DNA of 63,907 nt from Gemmatimonadota bacterium. Lineage in GTDB: Bacteria; Gemmatimonadota; Gemmatimonadetes; Palauibacterales; Palauibacteraceae. The notes under the pieces were generated by a model. The model had not been told where the DNA came from, ran no database searches, and saw only the letters and a program-made list of their open reading frames with translations. Every line of letters starts with the position of its first letter. Positions within the stretch are counted from its first letter, which is position 1. Where the stretch lies: assembly GCA_022825725.1 (NCBI GenBank), contig JAJDWE010000030.1:1-63907 (forward strand). Reading direction: 5' to 3'. Positions 29,427-63,647 of this stretch are shown here, piece after piece. A program made the position numbers and the translations under genes.

Positions 29427-30029
29427 TTGGCTGTGTCACCGTTCTGGAAGCGGAAGAACCGACGTGTACCCGGAGATCCCGGCACGGTGACGGAACCGCA
29501 ACTCATTCAGCGGCTCAGGGACGGAGACGAGGACGCGGCGCGCGCGTTGTACGACGCGCACGTCGACCGCGTATTCCGGATATGCTACCGGTTCGCGGGC
29601 GAGGACCATCTCGCTCAGGATTTCACGCAGGAGACGTTCGTGCGGGCGTTCACGAAGATCGACACGTTTCGCGGCGAGGCCGCGTTCGGGACGTGGCTGG
29701 GATCGATCGCGACGACGGTGTCGCTGAACGGACTTCGCAAGGTGAAGCGCTTTCGCAGCCGCGAGACCGCGCTGCACGAGGATCTCCGCTCGACCGGCGG
29801 CCTGAACCGCCTCGAACCCGACGTGAAGGATCGGCTGCACCGCGCGATCGACGAGCTTCCCGCGGGCTATCGAACCGTCTTCCTGCTGCACGACCTCGAG
29901 GGCTACACGCACGAGGAGATCGGGGCGATGCTCGGGATCAAGGCCGGGACCTCCAAGTCGCAGCTCTTCCGGGCCCGCAGCCGTCTGCGGGAGAAGCTCG
30001 CGGACTTCGCGGGAGAATGGGCATGCTGA
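29427..30029 (+). CDS. ECF-type RNA polymerase sigma factor
   Basis: About 200 aa from TTG 29427; GTG 29487, with GGAG upstream, is a good shorter start. Region 2 reads ALYDAHVDRVFRICYRFAG, then AQDFTQETFVRAFTKIDTFR with the conserved aromatic-rich helix. Region 4 reads LPAGYRTVFLLHDLEGYTHE, then IGAMLGIKAGTSKSQLFRAR. There is no region 1.1 or 3, so it is an extracytoplasmic-function sigma. The next gene overlaps its end and encodes a membrane-anchored protein, the usual place of an anti-sigma factor. Confidence 0.9.
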   Translation: MAVSPFWKRKNRRVPGDPGTVTEPQLIQRLRDGDEDAARALYDAHVDRVFRICYRFAGEDHLAQDFTQETFVRAFTKIDTFRGEAAFGTWLGSIATTVSLNGLRKVKRFRSRETALHEDLRSTGGLNRLEPDVKDRLHRAIDELPAGYRTVFLLHDLEGYTHEEIGAMLGIKAGTSKSQLFRARSRLREKLADFAGEWAC

Positions 30030-31111
30030 AGGATCGCATGGACGACGCGAGCCGCTTTGCCCGGTTCCTCCGCCGGGAGGCGGCGGACTACCACGACCCG
30101 CCGGCGCCCCCGGTCGAGGCGATGTGGGCCGGGATCGAGACGCGGCTCGGCGCGCCGCCGGTGTCCGACGAGCCGGAGTCGACGGACCTGGCAGGCATGG
30201 CGGACGCCGTGGACTGCATCGGAGACGACGTCGATCGCCCGTTCGATGTGCTGGGTTACCACGATCCGCCGCCCGCGCCGCGCGAGGCGATGTGGGAACG
30301 CATCGAGGCCGAATGGGTCGCACGGCAGCCGGAGGCCCCCGGCGCGCGGGAGGTGGCCCGCGGCTCGCTCCGGCTCGTCGTGGCCCGGACGCTCGGGCGA
30401 CGGCCCGGCCGGACCGCGGCATGGCTGACGGGAGCCGCCGCCGCTTCGGTCGCGCTCGCCGTGGCGCTCGACGGCGGCCCGCAGCTGCCGGTGCCTGACG
30501 GGCCCGAGACGGTGGCGGCAGCGGCGCCGACGCCGGTCGGAGCGGCGGGGACGACTGCGGCGTCGATCGCGGCGACCGACTCCGGGCCTCTCGCGCCGAC
30601 GGCCGCCGAGGAGGCGCTGGCCCTTTCCGTCGTCGAGGAGCCCCTGGAGACGAACCGGCAGTTCGCGGCGGCCACTCCGCCGCCGGCAGCCGATCCGGCC
30701 CCGGCTTCGGCCCGGCGCGAAGCGGACCCGCCGGTCCGCGCCGTCAGCTCGCCGGCGCAACGGCCCGCCGGCGCCGCGGGGCGCGCCAGCGTCGACGAAT
30801 ACGACATGGCGGGGCACCTCGACCGCGCCCGCACCCTGCTCGTCGCCTTCCGCACGGATATCGGCACCGACGAGTCCCAGGAGGATCTCGCACGGTGGGC
30901 GCGCGAACTGCTGGTGGAGACCCGTTCACGGCTCGCCACGCCCGCCGCCGACGGACAGCAGGCGCGGACGCTGCTGCAGGATCTCGAACTCATCCTCGTG
31001 CAGATCGCGCGCCTGGGCCCGGACGCCCCGGACTTCGAGCGCGAACTGGCCCGCGAGAGCATGGAACGGCAGGGGACGCTGATGCGGCTTCGTTCCGTGA
31101 GCGGCACGTGA
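30023..31111 (+). CDS. Membrane-anchored protein in anti-sigma position
   Basis: About 362 aa; GGGAGA lies 7 nt before ATG 30023. It overlaps the sigma gene by 7 nt. A cytoplasmic N-terminus of about 130 residues carries a duplicated motif (YHDPPAPPVEAMWAGIE and YHDPPPAPREAMWERIE). One helix (AAWLTGAAAASVALAVAL) follows, then an Ala/Pro-rich periplasmic stretch and a helical C-terminus (DMAGHLDRARTLLVAF). Position and topology fit an anti-sigma factor; the zinc-finger HxxxCxxC signature is absent, so the role is inferred. Confidence 0.6.
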   Translation: MLKDRMDDASRFARFLRREAADYHDPPAPPVEAMWAGIETRLGAPPVSDEPESTDLAGMADAVDCIGDDVDRPFDVLGYHDPPPAPREAMWERIEAEWVARQPEAPGAREVARGSLRLVVARTLGRRPGRTAAWLTGAAAASVALAVALDGGPQLPVPDGPETVAAAAPTPVGAAGTTAASIAATDSGPLAPTAAEEALALSVVEEPLETNRQFAAATPPPAADPAPASARREADPPVRAVSSPAQRPAGAAGRASVDEYDMAGHLDRARTLLVAFRTDIGTDESQEDLARWARELLVETRSRLATPAADGQQARTLLQDLELILVQIARLGPDAPDFERELARESMERQGTLMRLRSVSGT

Positions 31112-53279: not shown

Positions 53280-53834
53280 TCAGTGGGGGCGATAGGCCTC
53301 CACCCTGTCCGGATCCGTTTCCAGACGGGGTCCGCCGATGAGGTCGACGCAGTCGGGCACCGCCGCGAACACCGCGTCCAGGCACTCGCGGATGGCCTTG
53401 GGTGACCCCGGGAGGTTGATGATCAGCGCCGAACCCCGCACCCCCGCCGTCTGGCGCGAGAGGATCGCGGTCGGCACGTGGGGCCGGGAGACCGCGCGCA
53501 TCGCTTCACCGAAACCGGCGAGTTCCTTGTCGAGCACCGCGACGGTCGCCTCCGGAGTGACGTCGCGTGGGGCGGGTCCGGTGCCGCCAGTGGTGATGAC
53601 CAGGCAACAACCGGCCTCGTCGACCAGCTCGACCAGAGTCGCGCGGATCAGCTCCGTCTCGTCGGGGATGACGCGCGTGGCCGCCTCCCAGGGGGAGGTG
53701 AGGACATCTCTGAGATACGCCGCAACCCCCGGACCGCCCCGGTCCTCGTACTCGCCTCGGGAGGCACGGTCCGAAACCGAGAGGATGCCGATGCGGGCGA
53801 CGCCGCCGCCCGGCCCTTCCGATGAATCGTCCAT
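53280..53834 (-). CDS. mog: Molybdopterin adenylyltransferase
   Basis: A 184-aa MogA/MoaB-type protein, which adenylates molybdopterin before molybdate or tungstate insertion. Marks: IGILSVSDRASRGEYEDRGG, then VITTGGTGPAPRDVTPEAT with the catalytic acidic loop, RGSALIINLPGSPKAIREC and the C-terminal DLIGGPR. ATG 53834 excludes a long antisense-like extension. No other moa/moe gene is in the window; the TupABC genes at 17.6-20.3 kb would supply the oxyanion. Confidence 0.92.
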   Translation of the reverse strand: MDDSSEGPGGGVARIGILSVSDRASRGEYEDRGGPGVAAYLRDVLTSPWEAATRVIPDETELIRATLVELVDEAGCCLVITTGGTGPAPRDVTPEATVAVLDKELAGFGEAMRAVSRPHVPTAILSRQTAGVRGSALIINLPGSPKAIRECLDAVFAAVPDCVDLIGGPRLETDPDRVEAYRPH

Positions 53835-53927
53835 GGCGGGAATATGAGCCCCCGCGCCCCTTTTTCGATAGTTTGGCTGGATCGTGGAACCCGATGGACG
53901 GCATGAACCCGGTAAGGTTGATGACAT

Positions 53928-54734
53928 ATGACGAAGATCCTCGACGCGGCTCCGCTGGCCGACGTGCAGGCCCATCGCGACACGCGCAGGGTGCCGATCA
54001 GCCGCGTGGGCGTACAGAACGTCCGCTTCCCCATCTCCGTGAGGGACCGTCGGAAGACGGCTCAGCACACGATCGCGAACATCGACATGTCCGTGGACCT
54101 TCCCCACGACTTCAAGGGGACCCACATGAGCCGCTTCATGGAGATCCTCAATTCGTACAATGACGAGATCTCGGTGGAAGCGCTGCCCGCGATCCTGCGC
54201 ACGATGCGCGAGCGTCTCAATGCCGAGACCGCCCACCTCGGCATCTCCTTCCCCTACTTCGTGGAGAAGGAAGCTCCCGTAACCGGTGCGGCGGGCCTGC
54301 TGTCCTACGATTGCGCCTTCGACGCCTCCAGCGGAGCGGAGGACGACTTCATCCTCACGGTCAAGATCCCCGTGACGACGCTGTGTCCGTGCTCCCGGGA
54401 GATCAGCGCGCGCGGGGCGCACAACCAGCGCAGCATCGTCACCGTCAAGACGCGCTTCACGGGGCGGCTGTGGATCGAGGACGTCGTGGCGCTGGTGGAC
54501 GCATCGGCCTCGTGCGAGCTCTATCCCGTGCTGAAGCGCGCCGACGAGAAGTGGGTCACGGAGCACGCGTACGACAACCCCCGGTTCGTCGAGGACCTGG
54601 TCCGCGAGGTCACGCTCCGTCTTCGCGCACTGAGCCACGTGACCTGGTTCAGCGTCCACGTGATCAACTTCGAGTCGATCCACGAGCACGACGCGTATGC
54701 GCAAGTGGAGGAGCCCGCCCGCGCGTCGAGCTGA
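53928..54734 (+). CDS. folE2: GTP cyclohydrolase FolE2 (type IB)
   Basis: A 268-aa FolE2/MptA-family enzyme opening the GTP ring for folate (and queuosine) synthesis. Marks: VGVQNVRFPISVRD, DLPHDFKGTHMSRFMEIL, VKIPVTTLCPCSREIS with the active-site cysteine, GAHNQRS and a late FESIHEHDAYA. Unlike zinc-requiring FolE, FolE2 can use other metals and in many bacteria is made under zinc starvation. It lies beside the His-rich ABC transporter and DUF3299 gene. No recognisable Zur box was found upstream. Confidence 0.95.
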   Translation: MTKILDAAPLADVQAHRDTRRVPISRVGVQNVRFPISVRDRRKTAQHTIANIDMSVDLPHDFKGTHMSRFMEILNSYNDEISVEALPAILRTMRERLNAETAHLGISFPYFVEKEAPVTGAAGLLSYDCAFDASSGAEDDFILTVKIPVTTLCPCSREISARGAHNQRSIVTVKTRFTGRLWIEDVVALVDASASCELYPVLKRADEKWVTEHAYDNPRFVEDLVREVTLRLRALSHVTWFSVHVINFESIHEHDAYAQVEEPARASS

Positions 54735-54784
54735 GAGCTGCCAGCAGACTGAGAGTTGCCGGCAAGCTGAGAGCCGCCGGCAGC
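54731..54784. repeat. Three tandem 18-bp repeats at the end of folE2
   Basis: CTGAGAGCTGCCAGCAGA (54731-54748), CTGAGAGTTGCCGGCAAG (54749-54766) and CTGAGAGCCGCCGGCAGC (54767-54784). The first unit contains the folE2 stop codon. Copies fill the gap before the convergent permease gene. Units share CTGAGAGYYGCCRGCA; purpose unknown. Confidence 0.85.
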
Positions 54785-54794
54785 CCGCGGTCCG

Positions 54795-56303
54795 CTACAC
54801 CCGCACCGCCAGCCCGTCGTGGAGGGCGGTGCGGTAGGCCTTGAGCGCGGGTACGAATCCCATCAGGAATCCGGCCAGGACCACGGCGCCGAGGAAGAGC
54901 AGCTCGACGGAACCGGGTGGCCGGATCGGGATGAAGAGCCCCGCCTGCGCTTCGACGAGGGGCTGTGCGACCGCGAGCAGCGCATACACCAGCGTGAGTC
55001 CCGCGAGCGCTCCCGCCGAGGCCAGACACAGCGATTCGAGCACGAGCAGGGTGATGATCCGGTTGGGACCGGCGCCGACGGCGCGCAGGATCGCCATTTC
55101 GCGCCTGCGCTCGTTGAGCGACGTGTAGAGCGAGACCAGCATACCGAGCAGTCCTACCAGGACGACGAAGATGGCCACCAGCCGTAGCCCGGTCTCGGCG
55201 TAGGCCAGGCCCTGCCACATCTCGTTCAGGGCGACGCCGGGGATCACGGCCATCATCGGCTCATCCTCGAAGTCGTTGATCTCGCGCTGCAGCTGGAGCA
55301 CGTCCCGGCGGTTGGTCGTACCCACGAAGAACGAGGTGACCTGGGTGACCTCGACATCCTCGATCGAGATGTCCTCCGCGTGGACGTGGCCGTCGTCGGC
55401 GGGAGCGGCCTGCGCCTCGGCCTCGTCGTCATGGGCGTGGCCGTCGTCCGCGGGAGCCGCCTCCGCTTCGTCGGCGTGGGCGTCGCCGTCGTCATCGTGG
55501 TCGTGCCCGTCCTCGTCGTGGGCCGCCTCGGCCTCGTCGTCGTGGGCGTGGTCGTCGTCATGGGCCGCCTCCGCCTCGTCCTCGTGGGCGTGGCCGTCGT
55601 CGGACGGGGCCGCCTGCGCCTCCGCCTCGTGGTCGTGTTCGTCGTCCGACGCCGGCGGCGCGCCGTCCTCCCAGTGGATGGCCTCCATGCCCTCGAGCGT
55701 CACGTAGATTGCGCGGTCGACGGGGGTGAACGTCTTCGCGAGCACGCCCGTGACCGTGAAGGGCATGTGGTCGTGGTTGATGAAGCCCACTTCGCCGAGC
55801 CCGTGCGTGACCGCAATCTCGTCGCCGAGCGCGTAGTTCAGCTCGGCCGCCACGTCCGCGCCCAGCGTCACGTCGAACAGGCCCTCGTTCGCCCGTCCCT
55901 CCGCCAGCGCGATCTGCTGACCTCCCCGGTAGCGGTAGTGGCGGTAGAAGTCCTCGTTCGTGCCGATGACCCGGAACCCTCTGTGGCTGTCCCCCAGGCC
56001 GTAGGGGATGGTCCACTCGACCGCGGGGTGGTCCGCCCACTCCCTGTAGGCCTCCCACGAGACGTTCTCCGTCGGCGCCCCCATGCCGAACACCGAATAC
56101 AGCAGCAGCTGAATCGTGCCGCCCTTGGTGCCCACGATGAGGTCGGTCTGGCTGATGGTGTTGGAGAAGCTCTCGCGCATGCCCACGCGCACGTTCTCGA
56201 CGCCCATGAGGAGGGCGACGCTGAGGGCGATGGAGCCCACCGTGAGCGAGGTGCTGAAGGCGCGATTCCGGAGCGACTTGAGCGCGAGGTCGAAAATCAG
56301 CAT
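54795..56303 (-). CDS. FtsX-like ABC permease with His/Asp/Glu-rich insert
   Basis: A 502-aa MacB/FtsX-type permease: one N-terminal helix (FSTSLTVGSIALSVALLMG), a large periplasmic domain, then three C-terminal helices (LVAIFVVLVGLLGMLVSLYT, and two more). Residues about 217-306 are an acidic, histidine-rich repeat (DDGHAHDDEAEA and variants, over ten histidines), a probable zinc or other divalent-metal buffer in the periplasm. It starts at the ATPase stop (TGATG). In Pseudomonas aeruginosa a comparable ATPase-permease-DUF3299 operon (PA4063-PA4066) is Zur-controlled and has a separate His-rich protein; here the His-rich part sits inside the permease. Confidence 0.82.
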   Translation of the reverse strand: MLIFDLALKSLRNRAFSTSLTVGSIALSVALLMGVENVRVGMRESFSNTISQTDLIVGTKGGTIQLLLYSVFGMGAPTENVSWEAYREWADHPAVEWTIPYGLGDSHRGFRVIGTNEDFYRHYRYRGGQQIALAEGRANEGLFDVTLGADVAAELNYALGDEIAVTHGLGEVGFINHDHMPFTVTGVLAKTFTPVDRAIYVTLEGMEAIHWEDGAPPASDDEHDHEAEAQAAPSDDGHAHEDEAEAAHDDDHAHDDEAEAAHDEDGHDHDDDGDAHADEAEAAPADDGHAHDDEAEAQAAPADDGHVHAEDISIEDVEVTQVTSFFVGTTNRRDVLQLQREINDFEDEPMMAVIPGVALNEMWQGLAYAETGLRLVAIFVVLVGLLGMLVSLYTSLNERRREMAILRAVGAGPNRIITLLVLESLCLASAGALAGLTLVYALLAVAQPLVEAQAGLFIPIRPPGSVELLFLGAVVLAGFLMGFVPALKAYRTALHDGLAVRV

Positions 56304-56986
56304 CAGAGCACCGCCTTGTTGACGTCGGGAAGCGAGATGGTGCGGGAGAACATGCCCTCCAGGGTGCGGTCGTGGCTCACGAACACCAGCGTGGCGCCGG
56401 CGCGCTCGCACTCCTGAAAGAGCAGTTCGAGGAAGGCCTCCCGGCGGTCGAAGTCCAGGGAGGAGGTCGGTTCATCGGCGACGATGAGTTCGGGAGACCC
56501 GATCAGCGCCCGGCAGGCGGCCACGCGCTGCTGCTGACCCACCGAGAGTTCCGTCACCGGCTTCTTCAGCAGGTCGCCGATCTGGAGATGATCGGCCAGC
56601 TGCGTGGCGGTCTCCCGCACGCCCGTCCCGTCCAGCCGGGCCCGGCGTTCCGCGTTCATGCGCGCGGGGAGCGCGATGTTGTCGAGCACCGACAGGTAGG
56701 GGATGAGGTTGAACATCTGGAAGACGTAGCCGATGTGCTCCGCCCGGAAGGCGTCCCGTTGCGCGCCCGAGAGCGACGCGAGATCCTCGCCGAGCACCCT
56801 GACCTCGCCTTCTTCCGCTTCCAGCACTCCCGCCAGCACGCCGAGAAGCGTGGTCTTGCCGCTCCCGCTCGGACCGAACAGGAACGCGCGCGTCCCCCGC
56901 TCGAGGGTCAGTTCGGGGATGTCCAGCACCCAGGGGCCTCCACCGTAGCGGAAGCGCAGGCGTCGGAGGTCGATTGCGAGGCTCAT
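56303..56986 (-). CDS. ABC transporter ATP-binding protein (LolD/MacB-like)
   Basis: A 227-aa ATPase: Walker A GPSGSGKTTLLGVLAG near 36-51, Q-loop in YVFQMFNLIPYLSVLDNI, signature LSVGQQQRVAACRAL, Walker B LIVADEPTSSLDF, H-loop VSHD. It energises the overlapping permease by mechanotransmission rather than classic import, as expected of the MacB/LolCDE group. A terminator lies between the DUF3299 gene and this one, so it may have its own promoter near 57000. Confidence 0.9.
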   Translation of the reverse strand: MSLAIDLRRLRFRYGGGPWVLDIPELTLERGTRAFLFGPSGSGKTTLLGVLAGVLEAEEGEVRVLGEDLASLSGAQRDAFRAEHIGYVFQMFNLIPYLSVLDNIALPARMNAERRARLDGTGVRETATQLADHLQIGDLLKKPVTELSVGQQQRVAACRALIGSPELIVADEPTSSLDFDRREAFLELLFQECERAGATLVFVSHDRTLEGMFSRTISLPDVNKAVL

Positions 56987-57016
56987 CTACTGGCGTCTCC
57001 CTGCGCAGTAACTCAG

Positions 57017-57051
57017 AAAAAAGCGCGCCCCCGGCTCGGCGAGGGCGCGCT
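57017..57051 (-). terminator. Intrinsic terminator downstream of the DUF3299 gene
   Basis: On the minus strand AGCGCGCCC/GGGCGCGCT forms a 9-bp stem (57043-57051 with 57022-57030) directly followed by six T (57022-57017). It is the best textbook terminator in the window, 28 nt past the DUF3299 stop. Confidence 0.85.
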
Positions 57052-57079
57052 CAGTGCATGCAAGTGGCCGCATCACGGA

Positions 57080-57583
57080 TCAGGACTCGTACGGATAGAC
57101 CTGCTGACCGGAGAGGGTGAAACCGACGTAGCCGTAAACGCTCTCCGTCATCTCGATCGTCAGCACGCCCTCGACCCACACCGGGTTCCACCCGTCCAGC
57201 TTCGCCCGCTTGCCCTCATCCATCTCGATGTAGACGAGCTGGTTGGGCGGGGGAGGCGGCGTGTGGATGCAGGCGCCGACATAGGGCACGAGGAGGAATT
57301 CCGTCGCCGAGGACGCCCAGTCTTCGAGGGGCACCGTGAATCCGGGGATCTTGACGAGCTTGCCCGAGAGGGCCGCCAACTCCTCGCTCGGTTCGCCGGT
57401 CCGGTAGTTGAGGCTGGCCAGGAGGCGCCAGCCCACCTCGGTGGGATCGTCGGTCGATGCCGCCGCCGGCGCGTCGGCCGGCGGCTCCGTGACGACCTCA
57501 GTGGGGCCACCCGCGCCGGTGAGGGTCACCACGAACAACATGGCGGCGACCGTGGAGATAAGCCTGCGGCTTGTGTCAATCAT
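57080..57583 (-). CDS. DUF3299 exported protein
   Basis: A 167-aa protein from ATG 57583 with a signal peptide (LISTVAAMLFVVTLTGAGG). The DUF3299 core follows: GKLVKIPGFTVPLE near 90, then FLLVPYVGACIHTPPPPPNQ with a Cys-His pair that could bind a metal, and a C-terminal VEGVLTIEMTESVYGYVGF. The family goes with Zur-regulated ABC operons in gammaproteobacteria, supporting a role in envelope metal handling with the two ABC genes downstream. The terminator separates it from them. Confidence 0.85.
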   Translation of the reverse strand: MIDTSRRLISTVAAMLFVVTLTGAGGPTEVVTEPPADAPAAASTDDPTEVGWRLLASLNYRTGEPSEELAALSGKLVKIPGFTVPLEDWASSATEFLLVPYVGACIHTPPPPPNQLVYIEMDEGKRAKLDGWNPVWVEGVLTIEMTESVYGYVGFTLSGQQVYPYES

Positions 57584-57608
57584 CGAACAACTCCGGTTGC
57601 AAACGTTC

Positions 57609-59249
57609 TCAATCCGATCCCGGGTGATCCCGCCGGTCCTCCGCGGAAGCCGAAGCCGGCCGCGAGAGAGTCGGATACTTGATCCCCAACTGGTCAAGAT
57701 ACGTGTCGAAGCGCGTCTCGTCATAATAGAACTTCTCGAGGAGCGGACGGAAGGTGTCCATGATCTCCCGGTTGAGGTCGATCGGGGGCGGGTCGTCCGG
57801 TCCGATGAAGGGGACATACTCCATGGCGGAGGTCTGTTCCTCCCGGAAGTAGGTCCACGCGTCCTCGACGAGTTCCGGCTGGGCGAAGAGCTGGAGCGCC
57901 GTGCGGGCCACGACGCGCGCGCCGGCGACCGCGCCCTTGTGCGCGATGGGAGTCGCCATCGCCATGGCGCTCGACCAGTGGTGACCCGGAAGTCCCGGCA
58001 CGTTCGACGGGAAGCGCAGCGTCACCGTGGGCACGTTCCACGAGATGTCGCCGATGTCGTCGGACCCGCCGCTCCGGCGCGGCCCCGGCTCCCCCAGGCC
58101 CGAGAGCGCGATGGGCATCCCGGATGGGACGCTTCCCACAGACTGCTGCACGGCGCTCGCGAAGTCGTGATCGTCGTCGGTCCACTCCGGAAGCCCGACC
58201 TCCTCGATGTGTCCGTGCATCGTCTCGGCCACGACCTTGTTGAAGTGTCGCGGCCAGGCGGCTCCGATGATCCGGTACGACATCTCGGTGTCGGTCATCA
58301 GGGCCGCGCCCTCCGCGATGCGGATGGCCGTGTCGAAGTTGCGCTTGATGTCCTCGTAGTCCATCTCGCGGATGAAGTACCATACCGAGGCGCTCGGCGG
58401 CACGACGTTCGGCTGGTCGCCGCCGTCGCTGATCACGTAGTGGGAGCGCTGGTCGGGTCGCAGGTGCTCGCGCCGGAAGTTCCAGGCGACGTTCATCAGT
58501 TCGACCGCGTCGAGCGCGCTGCGGCCCCGCCAGGGCGCGCCCGCGCCGTGGGCGGCCTCGCCCTCGAAGGTGAACTCCACGGAAACGAGTCCCGTGCCGC
58601 TCCCCTGGCCCCAGCTCACCGACAGGTTGCTGCTCACGTGCGTGAAGAGGGTGACGTCGATGTCCTCGAGGTAGCCGTCCCGCACGTACCAGGCCTTGGA
58701 GCCCAACTGCTCCTCCGCGACCCCGGGCCAGAGCACGAGCGTGCCCTCGATCCCCTCGGCCTCCATGACCTCCTTGAGCGCGAGCGCCGCCACGACGTTC
58801 ACGGCCTGCCCGGAGTTGTGACCTTCGCCGTGGCCGGGCGCGCCCGGAACCAGGGGGTCGTGATAGGCGACGCCGGGCTTCTGGTTGGCCTTCGGAATTC
58901 CATCGATGTCGGACCCGAAGGAGATGACCGGCGAACCGCTGCCCCAGCGCGCGAACCAGGCGGTCGGGATGCCCACGGGCCCGTACTCGACGGTGAAGCC
59001 GTTCTCCTCCAGGATCCCGGTGATGTAGGCCGAGGTCTCGATCTCCTGCTGCCCCAGTTCGGAGAAGGAGAAGATCTTGTCGACCATGACCTGTGCGAGC
59101 TTGGCGCGCTCCAGCACGCCTTCTTCGACGCGGGTCACGAGGGGCGCGAGTTCATCGTCGGAGAGGCCCTGCACGGCCGCCAGAGCCGTGGGAGCGGAGA
59201 GAAGGGCGACCAGCGTTGCTGCCAGCGTTCGTCTACCGATTGTACCCAT
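57609..59249 (-). CDS. Exported M20-family amidohydrolase (AbgB-like)
   Basis: A 546-aa product; ATG 59249 gives a signal peptide (LAATLVALLSAPTALA). M20 metal ligands and framing: HNSGQAVNVVAALALKEVME, PGVAEEQLGSKAW and HGAGAPWRGRSALDAVELMN. The dimerisation domain YVISDGGDQPNVVPPSASVW resembles p-aminobenzoyl-glutamate hydrolase subunit B, which cleaves a folate breakdown product. Export to the periplasm is unusual for AbgB itself, so another N-acyl amino acid may be the substrate. Confidence 0.87.
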   Translation of the reverse strand: MGTIGRRTLAATLVALLSAPTALAAVQGLSDDELAPLVTRVEEGVLERAKLAQVMVDKIFSFSELGQQEIETSAYITGILEENGFTVEYGPVGIPTAWFARWGSGSPVISFGSDIDGIPKANQKPGVAYHDPLVPGAPGHGEGHNSGQAVNVVAALALKEVMEAEGIEGTLVLWPGVAEEQLGSKAWYVRDGYLEDIDVTLFTHVSSNLSVSWGQGSGTGLVSVEFTFEGEAAHGAGAPWRGRSALDAVELMNVAWNFRREHLRPDQRSHYVISDGGDQPNVVPPSASVWYFIREMDYEDIKRNFDTAIRIAEGAALMTDTEMSYRIIGAAWPRHFNKVVAETMHGHIEEVGLPEWTDDDHDFASAVQQSVGSVPSGMPIALSGLGEPGPRRSGGSDDIGDISWNVPTVTLRFPSNVPGLPGHHWSSAMAMATPIAHKGAVAGARVVARTALQLFAQPELVEDAWTYFREEQTSAMEYVPFIGPDDPPPIDLNREIMDTFRPLLEKFYYDETRFDTYLDQLGIKYPTLSRPASASAEDRRDHPGSD

Positions 59250-59788
59250 GGACGCACCGGGGCAAAGGGAACCGAAAGGCAAAGCACCTCCGTAGCATAA
59301 GTGTGCGCGGCCCGCGTCGGAAAGTGGGATGGCGCCGGCCCGGCAGAGCACATAGGGCCTGAATCCCGGTAGGAAATCGTCTAAAGTATTACAGGACTGC
59401 ACGATCTGCGTTTCCTGCCGTCTTACGGGACTTGGCTGGATCTTGCCGCTAGGGCGGGAAAACGTACTTGAATGGCGGGAAGCTGGGGTCTTCCGAGTTG
59501 GCGGAATATGCACCTCCGTCGCTCGGCGTAGCGAGCGTCGCCAAGGCCGACAACTGAAGGTAGTCGAGGTTGAGCGTGACCCCCACGCCTTCGACGGTGG
59601 CGATGTGAGGTGACGTGATAAACTTTATGTTATGGAATGACTTACAGAATTGATGGCCTCGCGGTTACCTCATTGCATACCTCTTCCCGAACGGGAATCC
59701 AATCGACCGCATCGGATGCCTTTGGAGTCTACCGATCTCCTTCCTTAGGTAGCCACAGCACGCGTTCCAAGGCCCCGCTCCGGTACCG
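59250..59788. other. Non-coding gap between the M20 and LRR genes
   Basis: This 539-nt stretch holds no open frame with coding character; the short ones are chance frames. The part near 59380-59660 is clearly richer in A+T than the rest of the window and should carry the M20 promoter (minus strand) and the LRR gene's 3' end. No hairpin with a T-tract, inverted repeat or mobile-element end was recognised. Confidence 0.5.
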
Positions 59789-61225
59789 CTACGGACACGT
59801 CGGGCCGCCGATATGTTCCTCGATGGTCGCTAGCCACGCCTGGAAAGCGTCGTCGCTTGGAGCGCAGAGCCCCGTGTTCCTCCAATTAAACCTCTTGAGC
59901 TGCAGGTTCGTCAATTCGATGGGCAGCGAACCGTTGAGTCCGGGGTTCGAAGCTATCGAGAGTCTGGTAAGCTGAGAAAGCTCGCCCAGCTCCGGGGGTA
60001 CGGGACCAGCCAGATCATTACCCCAAACATACAGCAATTCAAGGTTCTTGAGACCAGCCAATTCCGGTGGAATCGGGCCGGAAATATCGTTTGCGGAAAG
60101 CGCGAGCGTGGTGAGATTCTGGAGCCTTCCGAGTTGCCTCGGAATGGGGCCTGACAACTGGTTGAAATCGAGCCTCAGATGCTCAAGGTTCGCAAGCGTG
60201 CCCAGCCATGCCGGAATGGCGCCTGACAGGTCGTTCTTGTGAAGTTCTAGGATGGTGAGATTCTGGAGCCTCCCGAGCGCGGCAGGGATGAGACCGCTCA
60301 GATCGTTATCTCCGACGGTCAACACCTCAAGCTCGACGAGGTTGCCCAATCCGGCGGGAATCGAGCCGGACAGGTGGTTTTCGGTAAGCGTGAGCCATCC
60401 AAGATTCTGAAGCCCTCCAAGTTCCTCCGGAATGGGGCCGGAAAGCTGGTTGAAGTCAAGCCTCAAGCCCGTGAGATCCGCGAGGTTGCCCAGTGACGCT
60501 GGAATGGAGCCGGTCAAGGCGTTGTCAGTCAAGATGAGCGTCCTGAGCTTGGTCAGGTTGCCAAGCTCGGCCGGGATGGGGCCACTCAACTCGTTTTCCC
60601 AAGCCAAGAAGGTGTTCAAGTTCGTCAGTTTCCCGAGTTCGGGTGGGATGGGGCCACTAAGCTGGTTCTCCTCGATGCTCAGGCGAGTCAACGTGGTCAG
60701 GTCTCCAAGCTCGGGCGGGATCGGTCCACTGAGGTTGTTTTCGTAAATGTAGAGGTGCTCCAAGCTGGCCATTTCCCCGAGTTCGGACGGGATGGGGCCA
60801 CTAAGCTGATTCTGTTCGAGAACCAAATGCTTCAGGTCGGTGAGGTTACGCCATCCGAAGAAGGGAAGTCCCCCCGTCAGGCGGTTTTGGTCCAGACGGA
60901 GTCTCTCCAGCTTCGTCATTTGGAGCACTGACGCCGGAAATCGACCTTGGAGGTTGTTGTCACCGAGCTGCAGGAAGAGAACCTGCTGGTTGCCGTTTCC
61001 CCACGGATGCACGCCGTACCAGTGCCCAACCGGTTCGTCGGACAGCCATCTGTCCGACCGGTGCCATTCTGCACCTCTCGTATCACGGTACAGTAGCTCA
61101 AGGTTGTGACGATCATAGCTCAGCCTCAGCACCACACGGCGGCCCTGTTGGACCTCTGTTGGCTGCTCGCAGGCGACCAAGAGCATGAGCGCGGACGGCA
61201 CGAGGATGGCGAGGCGTCGTTTCAT
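59789..61225 (-). CDS. Plant-type leucine-rich-repeat lipoprotein
   Basis: A 478-aa lipoprotein (LAILVPSALMLLVAC lipobox). An N-cap (LELLYRDTRGAEWHRSDRWL; VGHWYGVHPW) is followed by about 14 repeats of 24 residues, each like NQLSGPIPPELGKLTNLNTF, matching the plant receptor LRR pattern, and a C-cap with a Cys pair (GLCAPSDD; GGPTC). Such eukaryotic-like LRR proteins are common in host-associated bacteria and mediate binding. Neighbouring repeats are very similar, indicating recent repeat expansion. Divergent from the gene at 61476. Confidence 0.88.
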   Translation of the reverse strand: MKRRLAILVPSALMLLVACEQPTEVQQGRRVVLRLSYDRHNLELLYRDTRGAEWHRSDRWLSDEPVGHWYGVHPWGNGNQQVLFLQLGDNNLQGRFPASVLQMTKLERLRLDQNRLTGGLPFFGWRNLTDLKHLVLEQNQLSGPIPSELGEMASLEHLYIYENNLSGPIPPELGDLTTLTRLSIEENQLSGPIPPELGKLTNLNTFLAWENELSGPIPAELGNLTKLRTLILTDNALTGSIPASLGNLADLTGLRLDFNQLSGPIPEELGGLQNLGWLTLTENHLSGSIPAGLGNLVELEVLTVGDNDLSGLIPAALGRLQNLTILELHKNDLSGAIPAWLGTLANLEHLRLDFNQLSGPIPRQLGRLQNLTTLALSANDISGPIPPELAGLKNLELLYVWGNDLAGPVPPELGELSQLTRLSIASNPGLNGSLPIELTNLQLKRFNWRNTGLCAPSDDAFQAWLATIEEHIGGPTCP

Positions 61226-61475
61226 AAGGCCAATGTAATCGACATGGCCGCCTGATGGGCGAGGACGGGGCGCGCCGTGCGGCGTCCGAGCCTTGGGGCC
61301 GTGGTCGGGAGCACCCCGGCGGTTGGGATGCCCAGTGCGGGCTATCGCGGCGGGTGGGGATGCGCCCCCCCCATCCGCCGCCGGAAGTCTCTGCGGACGA
61401 GCGAGCGGCGGCTGATCGTCGGTTGTGGAGACCAGTCTTGCGCTGAACCCGACTCCGGCCCGAACATTTGGCTGC

Positions 61476-63647
61476 ATGGAACTCACCGCTTTCACCGCAC
61501 TTGTGCCTCCCAATAGCCAAGAGCTGCATCCTCCGGCGTGCCGCTCCTCCGATCCGCACCCGGGGCTGATCGCCGCGCGGGTCCGGCTTCGGGGCTCCGC
61601 TCTGGTCGCGGCGGCGGTCGCGTTTGTGACGGCCTGCGGGGACGAACCAATGACACTGGCCACGCCGGACCCGTCGGTCCCCACCACGGTCGCGATCTCG
61701 CCCGCCTCCGCAGCGTTCCGTTCGATCAGCGACACTGTGAGAATGATCGCCACCGTGAGCGACCAGTACGGTTCGGCGATGGCCGATGTCGCGGTCGTGT
61801 GGAACAGCGGCAATATAGCCGTCGCCGCCGTGACGGAAGGGCTCGTTACCGCGATGGGCAACGGCAATGCGACCGTCACCGCTGTGGCCGGGTCGGCGGT
61901 GGCCAGCGCGAAGGTGGCGGTGGAGCAGTTGGCTAACACGGTCATCGTGACTCCGGCTACGGACTCGGTCGCGGAAGGCGACACGCTTCGCCTCTCAGCC
62001 GTTGCGATGGACGGGAACGGGCATGTGGTAACAGGTGCGGAGTTCGAGTGGTCGTCAGACAACGGGTCCGTGGCGGGGGTGACCAAATTCGGTCTGGTGC
62101 ATGCTGCTGCGGAGGGTACGGCCACGATCTCGGTCGTGTCGGGGAGCGCGCAAGACGCAGCGCATATCACCGTGTTCCACCCCGACCGGGCGGTCCTGGT
62201 CGCACTCTACGAAGCGATGGACGGGCCGAACTGGGTGAACAGCGAGAACTGGCTCACCGACGCTCCGCTCTGGGATTGGTACGGCATCAGCTTGCGTGGT
62301 GGTCGGGTGGCCATGCTAAACCTCAGGAAGAACGGACTCACCGGCTCAATACCTCCCGAACTCGTTGGGCTATCTGGTCTGCGATGGCTGCTACTGGACG
62401 AGAACGCTCTCAGCGGCCCCATCCCGTCCGAACTCGCTGGGCTCACTGATCTGCGTTGGCTGTGGCTGGACGGAAACGCGCTCACCGGCCCCGTTCCACC
62501 GAAACTTGGCGACACGAGCTTGGAAAGCCTCGGCCTTTCGGACAACGAGCTTTCCGGTCCGATCCCGCCGGAGTTGGGCAAGAACCAAAACCTCACGGAC
62601 CTTAGTGTAGCCAACAACCCCGGTCTCCGAGGAGAGATCCCCCCGGCCATCCTGCCGAATCTGGAGAAATTGTACTCGTATGGGACCGGCCTTTGCGTAG
62701 CTCGCACCGGCGATTTTGACTCGTACATCACAAGGGATCACTGGATTGGCTACGCCTGCGGTGAAACGGAACCGGGCTTTCAGATTCAGCTGGTATTCGA
62801 GCCGGATGTCCCCGAGTTCATCCGCGATGCGATGAATTCCCAAGCGGAATACTGGATGGAAATCCTCCGGGAAACGGAAGCCCCTGACATTTTTGGCACA
62901 GCCGACTGCCACGGCGTGGGTCGGATGCAACAGGTACCCGTCATCGACGATGTCCTCGTGGTCGTCAGTATGTGGAAAACCTATACGGCAGGAATCTGCG
63001 GAAGCTACCGCATGTTGCGCCACCGCATCCCTGACCGTGGCGGTGTGGCATTCGAGAGGAACTGGCTGGACATTGACTCCCGCTGGGTCGATCTCGTCGC
63101 CCGTCACGCGCTCGGCCACGTCCTCGGGATCGGAACCCTTTGGGATATCCGCGGCCAACTAAAGAATCCGAGCACATCGAAAGAGGTGCGGGATACCTAT
63201 GTCGTCTCGCCCCTCGCGGAGAGAGCATTCGATGCGGCTGGTGGCGCGAGCTACACCGGGCCGAAGGTGCCTCTGCGCCATCGCAGAAACTACACCTCTC
63301 ACTGGCGACCCGAGGTGTTCGGGTCCGAACTCATGACGGGGCGCTGGAGCGACCACGTGCCAACGAGCGCGGTGACGCTTCAGGCGCTCGCGGACCTCGG
63401 CTACACAGTCGACCTGAGCCTCGCCGATCCGTATACGCTCCCCGGTGCAGCAGCAGCTTCCGCTATTGGAACGGCAGCGTCGCTATCTTTCGAACTGGGC
63501 TGGGAGGGCCCGTCCTCGGTCGTGGTGTGCCCTCCGCGAGACCGGCCCTTCGAGGAGCCGGAGGCCCTTGGCTTTCGGGATCTCGCCGCTCCGGTATCGG
63601 TCCAAACACTCTGCACGTCGATTCGATGGACGCGGGGGCGATTCTAG
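61476..63647 (+). CDS. Big2-LRR-metalloprotease-like lipoprotein with altered HExxH
   Basis: About 723 aa from ATG 61476, though a later start closer to the lipobox (FVTAC) is possible. Two Big2/BIG-type Ig domains (VAISPASAAFRSISDTVRMI; VIVTPATDSVAEGDTLRLSA) precede an LRR block with the same N-cap as the gene at 59789 (LYEAMDGPNWVNSENWLTDA) and about four plant-type repeats. The C-terminal 250 residues resemble leishmanolysin-like proteases, but the zinc motif expected as HExGHxxGIGTLW reads HALGHVLGIGTLW (residues 544 on): the catalytic Glu is Ala. It is probably inactive or a pseudoenzyme. Confidence 0.8.
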   Translation: MELTAFTALVPPNSQELHPPACRSSDPHPGLIAARVRLRGSALVAAAVAFVTACGDEPMTLATPDPSVPTTVAISPASAAFRSISDTVRMIATVSDQYGSAMADVAVVWNSGNIAVAAVTEGLVTAMGNGNATVTAVAGSAVASAKVAVEQLANTVIVTPATDSVAEGDTLRLSAVAMDGNGHVVTGAEFEWSSDNGSVAGVTKFGLVHAAAEGTATISVVSGSAQDAAHITVFHPDRAVLVALYEAMDGPNWVNSENWLTDAPLWDWYGISLRGGRVAMLNLRKNGLTGSIPPELVGLSGLRWLLLDENALSGPIPSELAGLTDLRWLWLDGNALTGPVPPKLGDTSLESLGLSDNELSGPIPPELGKNQNLTDLSVANNPGLRGEIPPAILPNLEKLYSYGTGLCVARTGDFDSYITRDHWIGYACGETEPGFQIQLVFEPDVPEFIRDAMNSQAEYWMEILRETEAPDIFGTADCHGVGRMQQVPVIDDVLVVVSMWKTYTAGICGSYRMLRHRIPDRGGVAFERNWLDIDSRWVDLVARHALGHVLGIGTLWDIRGQLKNPSTSKEVRDTYVVSPLAERAFDAAGGASYTGPKVPLRHRRNYTSHWRPEVFGSELMTGRWSDHVPTSAVTLQALADLGYTVDLSLADPYTLPGAAAASAIGTAASLSFELGWEGPSSVVVCPPRDRPFEEPEALGFRDLAAPVSVQTLCTSIRWTRGRF

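Follow-up and report, generated by a model that had tools for sequence, protein, structure and literature searches.

A ZrgA-less DUF3299-ABC transporter cassette with an acidic histidine-rich permease loop in a Gemmatimonadota bacterium

A stretch of 63,907 nucleotides from a Gemmatimonadota bacterium of the family Palauibacteraceae (assembly GCA_022825725.1, contig JAJDWE010000030.1, positions 1 to 63,907), here called the window, was examined for a cassette that encodes a DUF3299 protein, an ATP-binding cassette (ABC) ATPase and a MacB/FtsX-type permease. The conserved unit is DUF3299-ATPase-permease, at this locus behind the gene of an M20-type amidohydrolase. The permease carries an acidic, histidine-rich (His-rich) loop. 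Among the relatives examined, no such loop was seen where a gene for ZrgA, the separate His-rich protein of related systems, lies next to the cassette. The cassette is best read as a variant of the Zrg-type system that does without ZrgA, carries its own metal buffer and stands outside Zur control. The following features were assigned in the window.

53928-54734, forward strand: folE2 (Pfam GCHY-1, 316 bits; NCBIfam FolE2 equivalog), a convergent neighbour judged to lie outside the system
54795-56303, reverse strand: ABC permease of the MacB/FtsX type, ZrgB/PA4065-like, 502 aa (Pfam MacB_PCD 51 bits, FtsX 63 bits)
55377-55646, reverse strand: acidic His-rich insert of 90 aa (residues 220-309 of the permease), in part made of tandem repeats and predicted to be disordered
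56303-56986, reverse strand: ABC ATPase of the LolD/FtsE/MacB nucleotide-binding domain class, ZrgC/PA4064-like (Pfam ABC_tran 107 bits)
57021-57052, reverse strand: terminator-like hairpin with a T run in the gap between DUF3299 and ATPase, 13 pairs, 10 of them G-C
57080-57583, reverse strand: DUF3299 protein, ZrgE/PA4066-like, bearing VPYVGACIHTPPPPPNQ (Pfam DUF3299 116 bits)
57609-59249, reverse strand: gene of an M20-type amidohydrolase, ahead of DUF3299 (NCBIfam TIGR01891 157.6 bits, cut-off 153.75)
59291-59330, reverse strand: block conserved in the genus upstream of M20, ACTTTCC...CTTATGCTA (by eye), a promoter candidate

The initial annotation had joined FolE2, the FtsX permease, the ATPase and DUF3299 in one compact module. 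These four calls were confirmed by Pfam and NCBIfam matches, with the top NCBIfam rows of the ATPase all under their cut-offs. The module as drawn did not hold, because folE2 is encoded on the other strand and converges with the permease gene, the M20 gene had been left out and a hairpin stands between DUF3299 and ATPase. ATPase and permease are two overlapping genes and not one chain (the ATPase stop and the permease start share bases in TGATG), and 25 bp separate the M20 stop from the DUF3299 start. Two terminator-like sites were counted in the scanned region, against a mean of 2.0 in shuffled sequence. A similar hairpin was seen by eye in 10 of 34 DUF3299-ATPase gaps (families f1 and f6). 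Because the hairpin recurs, M20-DUF3299 and ATPase-permease may be two separate transcripts. The M20 start was set at the ATG at 59249, which gives an N-terminus resembling a signal peptide by eye. In the conserved block upstream of it, no promoter was called by a consensus promoter scan and no Zur-like box was found.

The insert had been described as an acidic His-repeat of about 90 residues, which agrees with residues 220-309. In the complete expanded loops of nine genus members, the window included, 108 of 658 residues are His; 92 of these stand in HxH, and Lys/Arg occurs once (L040, at a contig end, and L044, unexpanded, were left out). The tandem repeats have periods of 21-66 bp. Within the genus the loop measures 57-133 aa with 5-19 His, except in L044 (31 aa, 2 His). 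Most relatives in family f6 have a loop of 31 aa ('FGWEDGAPPMPGEE...'), and a few members of families f4 and f6 reach 7-9 His. The closest unexpanded relative, L080, is 90% identical and has 3 His, with ...ASDDEHDHEHPVD... at the loop site. A stretch similar to the insert, HAHDDEHAHDDEH, occurs in ZrgA of the same phylum. The ratio of nonsynonymous to synonymous differences (pN/pS) in three close relatives was 0.18-0.27 for insert codons and 0.08-0.13 outside, and His was retained at 10/11 to 15/15 aligned places. Five further relatives gave 0.14-0.73 and 0.07-0.15, respectively. The ratio for the insert was below 1 in all pairs tested; the alignment of repeats is uncertain for these values. 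Over the His-rich loops of both samples described below, 16% of the residues are His, 30% Asp and Glu, 0.1% Cys and 1% Met. The near absence of Cys and Met disfavours a Cu(I) site and would fit zinc as the most likely metal, with cobalt or nickel possible.

The AlphaFold model of the permease (predicted local distance difference test, pLDDT, 77) shows the insert as disordered and matches 5xu1 (Z 24.0), LolCDE (21.1), HrtBA (19.7) and MacB (17.6). The model thus suggests the fold of a type VII ABC permease, and the matches to HrtBA and LolCDE indicate the fold only. Over its full length the permease is homologous to the permeases of ZrgA-bearing cassettes. H167, H177 and H210 were invariant in three permease alignments (48, 27 and 33 rows) and H107 invariant or nearly so. 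The His-rich loop exits the periplasmic domain directly after H210. In the model of the short-loop permease L080, the stretches 168-177 and 212-228, flanked by H167, H177 and H210, have low confidence. Judging from the models, the three His residues and the loop may form a metal site.

In the loci examined, His-rich loops and ZrgA exclude each other at the level of the cassette. In the first sample, the best 80 named GTDB loci found via a Gemmatimonadota alignment, at least 4 His were present in the loop of 0/37 ZrgA-adjacent permeases and of 22/43 others. Loop length was 19-30 aa in the ZrgA-adjacent group, with no more than 2 His, and 27-220 aa in the 43 others; the 22 contained 4-28 His. 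For the second sample 274 gammaproteobacterial genomes were drawn evenly. A match was obtained in 35, one of them the known L171 and 34 new. Here at least 4 His occurred in 0/20 ZrgA-adjacent permeases (maximum 1 His) and 5/9 non-adjacent ones (8-23 His), with five further loci left unassigned. The combined tree set gave 0/61 ZrgA-adjacent permeases and 36/66 without adjacent ZrgA. On its tree 14-16 changes of either trait were counted, and His-rich loops appear in several separate parts.

The tree set contains 22 extra Gemmatimonadota rows, hand-chosen from 63 further permeases with all five ZrgA-adjacent ones included, and near duplicates such as L093/L175. Six contig-end rows with undecided ZrgA state, all below 4 His, were left out (L154, L158, L193, L277, L278, L284), as were four truncated permeases by length (L176, L208, L291, L297), among them L297 with 9 His and L208 with ZrgA and 0 His. 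The coordinates placed L185 among the ZrgA-adjacent permeases, on the assumption that the record with the final digits 07 corresponds to its contig C7; L288 was taken as non-adjacent though a ZrgA gene sits about 4 kb upstream. ZrgA elsewhere in the genome accompanied His-rich loops in 4/18 genomes of one set and 0/6 of the other. L268, L270, L273 and L288, all the His-poor non-adjacent gammaproteobacterial cassettes with full context, have ZrgA elsewhere in the genome. The longest loop (220 aa, 28 His) belongs to the permease L149 of Gemmatimonadetes IRC1_bin_16. A distant gammaproteobacterial permease subfamily (L292-L296) has loops of 27-100 aa with 8-23 His at the same site; these permeases adjoin an ATPase gene, four of the five loci have a weak DUF3299 match, and the genomes are without ZrgA.

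The separate His-rich protein had been reported as absent at the locus. In agreement with this, ZrgA (PF10986) was found in none of the 13 genus members searched, the window's own genome included. The further description of a fused form is overstated: a His-rich loop is indeed built into the permease, but no ferredoxin-like ZrgA core was seen in the insert. A ZrgA fusion was ruled out on this ground and because many ZrgA-less permeases have short loops.

DUF3299 was detected in 86 of 298 genomes of the phylum, including 11/13 of the window's genus. It was found in 0/9 other listed members of the family and in 0/5 of the sister family in the order, and it reappears in other families of the class. 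From 20+20+20+20 regions, 80 DUF3299 loci of the phylum were read and then typed. DUF3299-ATPase-permease stood alone in 32 and together with M20 in 28; five of the latter also had folE2 beside them, all in the window's genus. ZrgA-DUF3299 without ABC genes was found in 13 loci, ZrgA with ABC genes in five (two of them also with M20), M20-DUF3299 in one and DUF3299 alone in one. M20 was present in 31/80 loci and in 10/10 of the genus. Permeases with His inserts in relatives, for which the initial annotation had proposed a search, do occur near DUF3299 in ZrgA-less cassettes, but folE2 accompanies the cassette only within the genus. Most f6 loci match the window's genus at about 80-95% identity in M20, ATPase and permease, and two Latescibacterota metagenome-assembled genomes have permeases 79-82% identical, one on a 2.5-Mb contig. 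The high identity across families and phyla together with the patchy distribution suggests horizontal spread, with misbinning as a further possibility, and the cassette was probably acquired horizontally. Neighbour clustering was noisy because of antisense frames in GC-rich DNA and was kept only for Fur-like and merC-like genes near ZrgA loci. In loci of family f6 such as L066, L074, L077, L090 and L098, ZrgA and DUF3299 diverge from a Zur-like box that they share; a merC-like gene is near, no ABC genes stand beside them, and the ABC genes are located elsewhere, behind M20.

The likeness to Zur-controlled operons of the PA4063-PA4066 type, claimed in the initial annotation, stood for the gene content, since the cassette is related to ZrgABCDE/PA4063-PA4066 and lacks only ZrgA among the genes compared, but not for the control by Zur. 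An AT-rich palindrome is common to 12 divergent zrgA/DUF3299 regions of family f6, from which a candidate Zur motif of the phylum was picked by eye. Its training sites score 15-27, a circular measure, as the motif was scored on the sites it was picked from. Independent support comes from the window's own genome, in which a site precedes a fur gene. With at most two mismatches the palindrome was found in six places of this genome, three of them with one mismatch, and nowhere with the reversed control. No site lies within the window. The gaps proposed for a Zur scan, 53835-53927 and 57584-57608, reached at best 3.1 and 3.2, and the region before M20 0.8. The best of 31 other M20 upstream regions scored 10.0, and no candidate box was found in the 32 M20 upstream regions. 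Zur control of the cassette is not supported by the sequence: the inferred motif occurs elsewhere in the genome but neither in these gaps nor ahead of M20.

Within about 1 kb, Zur-like boxes were detected for 20/49 ZrgA cassettes and 1/17 His-loop cassettes (Fisher p 0.007, with relatedness ignored and lineages not matched between the sets). By sample, the counts were 12/30 and 1/13, and in the second sample 8/19 and 0/4. A narrow gammaproteobacterial scan of 350 bp with at most two mismatches gave an uninformative 5/30 and 1/13. On contig C2 of the window's genome (about 29600-30500; L143:5590-6506) the palindrome is followed by a gene for a merC-like membrane protein (by eye) and by a Fur-family gene, one of three in this genome. 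This pair is likely the organism's Zur operon. The other two sites with one mismatch precede a TonB-receptor-like gene (C84:16315, L144) and a gene resembling an oxidoreductase dependent on flavin adenine dinucleotide (C35:4233, L145), both named by eye. Such sites possibly mark a small Zur regulon. ZnuA gave no match in this genome.

FolE2 works without zinc and had been regarded as the zinc-sparing member of the module. FolE1 (PF01227) is absent from the window's own genome, hence FolE2 is its sole GTP cyclohydrolase I. Among 17 genus members, nine have FolE2 without FolE1 and eight FolE1 without FolE2; FolE1 was found in 0/9 of the FolE2-bearing members. Since the two are mutually exclusive, FolE2 displaced FolE1 and is not a backup. 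The genus offers a clean case of non-orthologous displacement in these 17 genomes. In 13 members searched for both, seven have cassette and FolE2, four the cassette only, one FolE2 only and one neither. FolE2 was therefore rejected both as a module member (convergent, sole GTP cyclohydrolase I, tracking the loss of FolE1, beside 5/80 loci only) and as a zinc-sparing paralogue in a Zur regulon, as the zinc-dependent FolE is absent from the genome. A molybdopterin adenylyltransferase gene (moaB/mog type, 53280-53928) diverges from folE2. On the upstream side of M20, two frames on opposite strands with leucine-rich-repeat-like segments (SGPIPxELGxLxxL) flank the locus at 59789-63647.

We infer that permease and separate ATPase would form a MacB/LolCDE-like (type VII) machine with a periplasmic DUF3299 protein. 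The acidic His-rich loop after H210 would loosely bind and concentrate divalent metal, most likely zinc and possibly cobalt or nickel, at the place where soluble ZrgA, in ZrgA-bearing systems, would hand over or signal metal. Tandem repeats may have extended the loop from a short one that already bore His, and selection would maintain its His content. We see about even chances for such a machine, in which the loop gathers metal where ZrgA would deliver it. Only tentatively do we extend the proposal to self-buffered type VII ABC metal systems as a class that spans phyla, with the loop doing the collecting of ZrgA outside Zur control and its site marking the docking of ZrgA on ZrgB.

Several results weigh against a loop serving as the transporter's own metal buffer. 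On the starred branches of the tree, independent pairs gave averages of 0 in the same direction, 4.5 in opposite direction and 4.5 without difference. The median p was 0.0625 for the combined tree set and 0.125 in the other tree, so the exclusion of ZrgA and His-rich loop is striking in the counts and repeated but short of significance once relatedness is taken into account. The distribution (0/61 and 36/66) lends support to the buffer as initially annotated, and the independent pairs point the same way but are too few. Fewer than 4 His were present in 30/66 ZrgA-less permeases, including the M20-type ones of family f6, several of which are His-poor in ZrgA-free genomes (e.g. G017 with 2 His, G053 with 1 His). 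L202, L193 and L176 and the contig-edge L277 and L278 are likewise His-poor in genomes without a ZrgA match. In family f4, Pro-rich repeats of 94-152 aa occupy the loop site, which together with the His-poor permeases indicates that it tolerates other filler. Length is unstable among close relatives (spans of 38-113 aa), and the constraint is weaker than in the flanks (pN/pS up to 0.73 compared with 0.07-0.15). The authors of PMC9820375 report that V. cholerae ZrgA does not depend on its His-rich stretch for function.

Some of these observations would also be expected if the loop were a permissive, unstructured spacer after H210 in which GAC/GAG/CAC/GCC repeats expanded in the GC-rich DNA of this genus, His being a by-product without metal function. 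The differing loop lengths (up to 220 aa in L149), the repeat periods, the Pro-rich filler in family f4 and the disorder of the loop in the model, low-confidence in the short L080 as well, fit such drift. We consider it rather improbable, since lineages of low GC content and other codon make-up (Pseudoalteromonas, Aliivibrio) have His-rich loops too, none of the 61 ZrgA-adjacent permeases has one, HxH spacing goes along with a near absence of Lys/Arg, and pN/pS stayed below 1 in each tested pair. Alternatively, the ZrgA-less cassettes could be another MacB-like device whose loop senses metal, ZrgA being missing because the job differs. Metallophore export would be one example, maintenance of a periplasmic metalloprotein with the M20 enzyme as client another; that M20 would be a client in need of metal is speculative. 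The rarity of Zur-like boxes at His-loop cassettes and their absence upstream of M20 speak for it, as do the four His-loop genomes with ZrgA elsewhere, M20 ahead of DUF3299 in 31/80 loci and the MacB-type export of pyochelin/cobalt argued for PA4064-PA4065 (PMC11481552, in its accessible part). Permease fold, ATPase, DUF3299 and the invariant periplasmic His are all the same, however, and the acidic-His chemistry of ZrgA recurs in the permease, which makes this explanation unlikely. The idea of a zinc-economy module under Zur, in which FolE2 would be the zinc-sparing partner, is largely refuted and very improbable. FolE2 is zinc-free as such a module would have it, and the ZrgA-type relatives in Vibrio and Pseudomonas are Zur-controlled according to the accessible parts of PMC9817125 and PMC11481552. 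Against this stand the convergent folE2, the missing FolE1 that it could back up, the strict alternation of both in the genus, the four of 13 genomes with the cassette only and the one with FolE2 only, and the low motif scores at the gaps.

We thus prefer the ZrgA-less, self-buffered variant of the Zrg-type system. With ZrgABCDE of V. cholerae and V. parahaemolyticus the window shares the MacB-like permease (ZrgB), the separate ATPase (ZrgC) and the DUF3299 protein (ZrgE). It differs in having no ZrgA, a long His-rich permease loop, no Zur-like box and M20 in front, and its gene order is DUF3299-ATPase-permease instead of ZrgA-ATPase-permease-DUF3299. The split, MacB-type exporter-like ABC pair and DUF3299 (PA4066) are also shared with PA4063-PA4066 of Pseudomonas aeruginosa, but the window's genome has nothing that corresponds to the ZrgA homologue PA4063. 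Zrg is an unusual metal system with disputed direction and working: the accessible texts favour zinc import in Vibrio (PMC9817125, PMC9820375) and export of pyochelin/cobalt in Pseudomonas (PMC11481552). As these reports conflict, we do not commit to a transport direction. The fold of the permease model and the mechanotransmission architecture are common to MacB, LolCDE and HrtBA. Unlike in MacB, the ATPase is a separate chain, and unlike in all three, the periplasmic domain of the permease has an acidic His-rich loop. In the open-licence literature, as far as its accessible text goes, no description of His-rich permease loops of this kind was found. ZnuA-type zinc-binding proteins and ZrgA likewise have a flexible stretch rich in acidic residues and His at a metal site in the periplasm, there in a soluble binding protein, here in the permease. 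PMC9820375 raises the possibility that ZrgA contacts ZrgB at its large periplasmic domain. The reciprocal distribution points to one loop as the likely site of this contact or hand-over, and the natural ZrgA-free cassettes provide material for testing how ZrgA docks.

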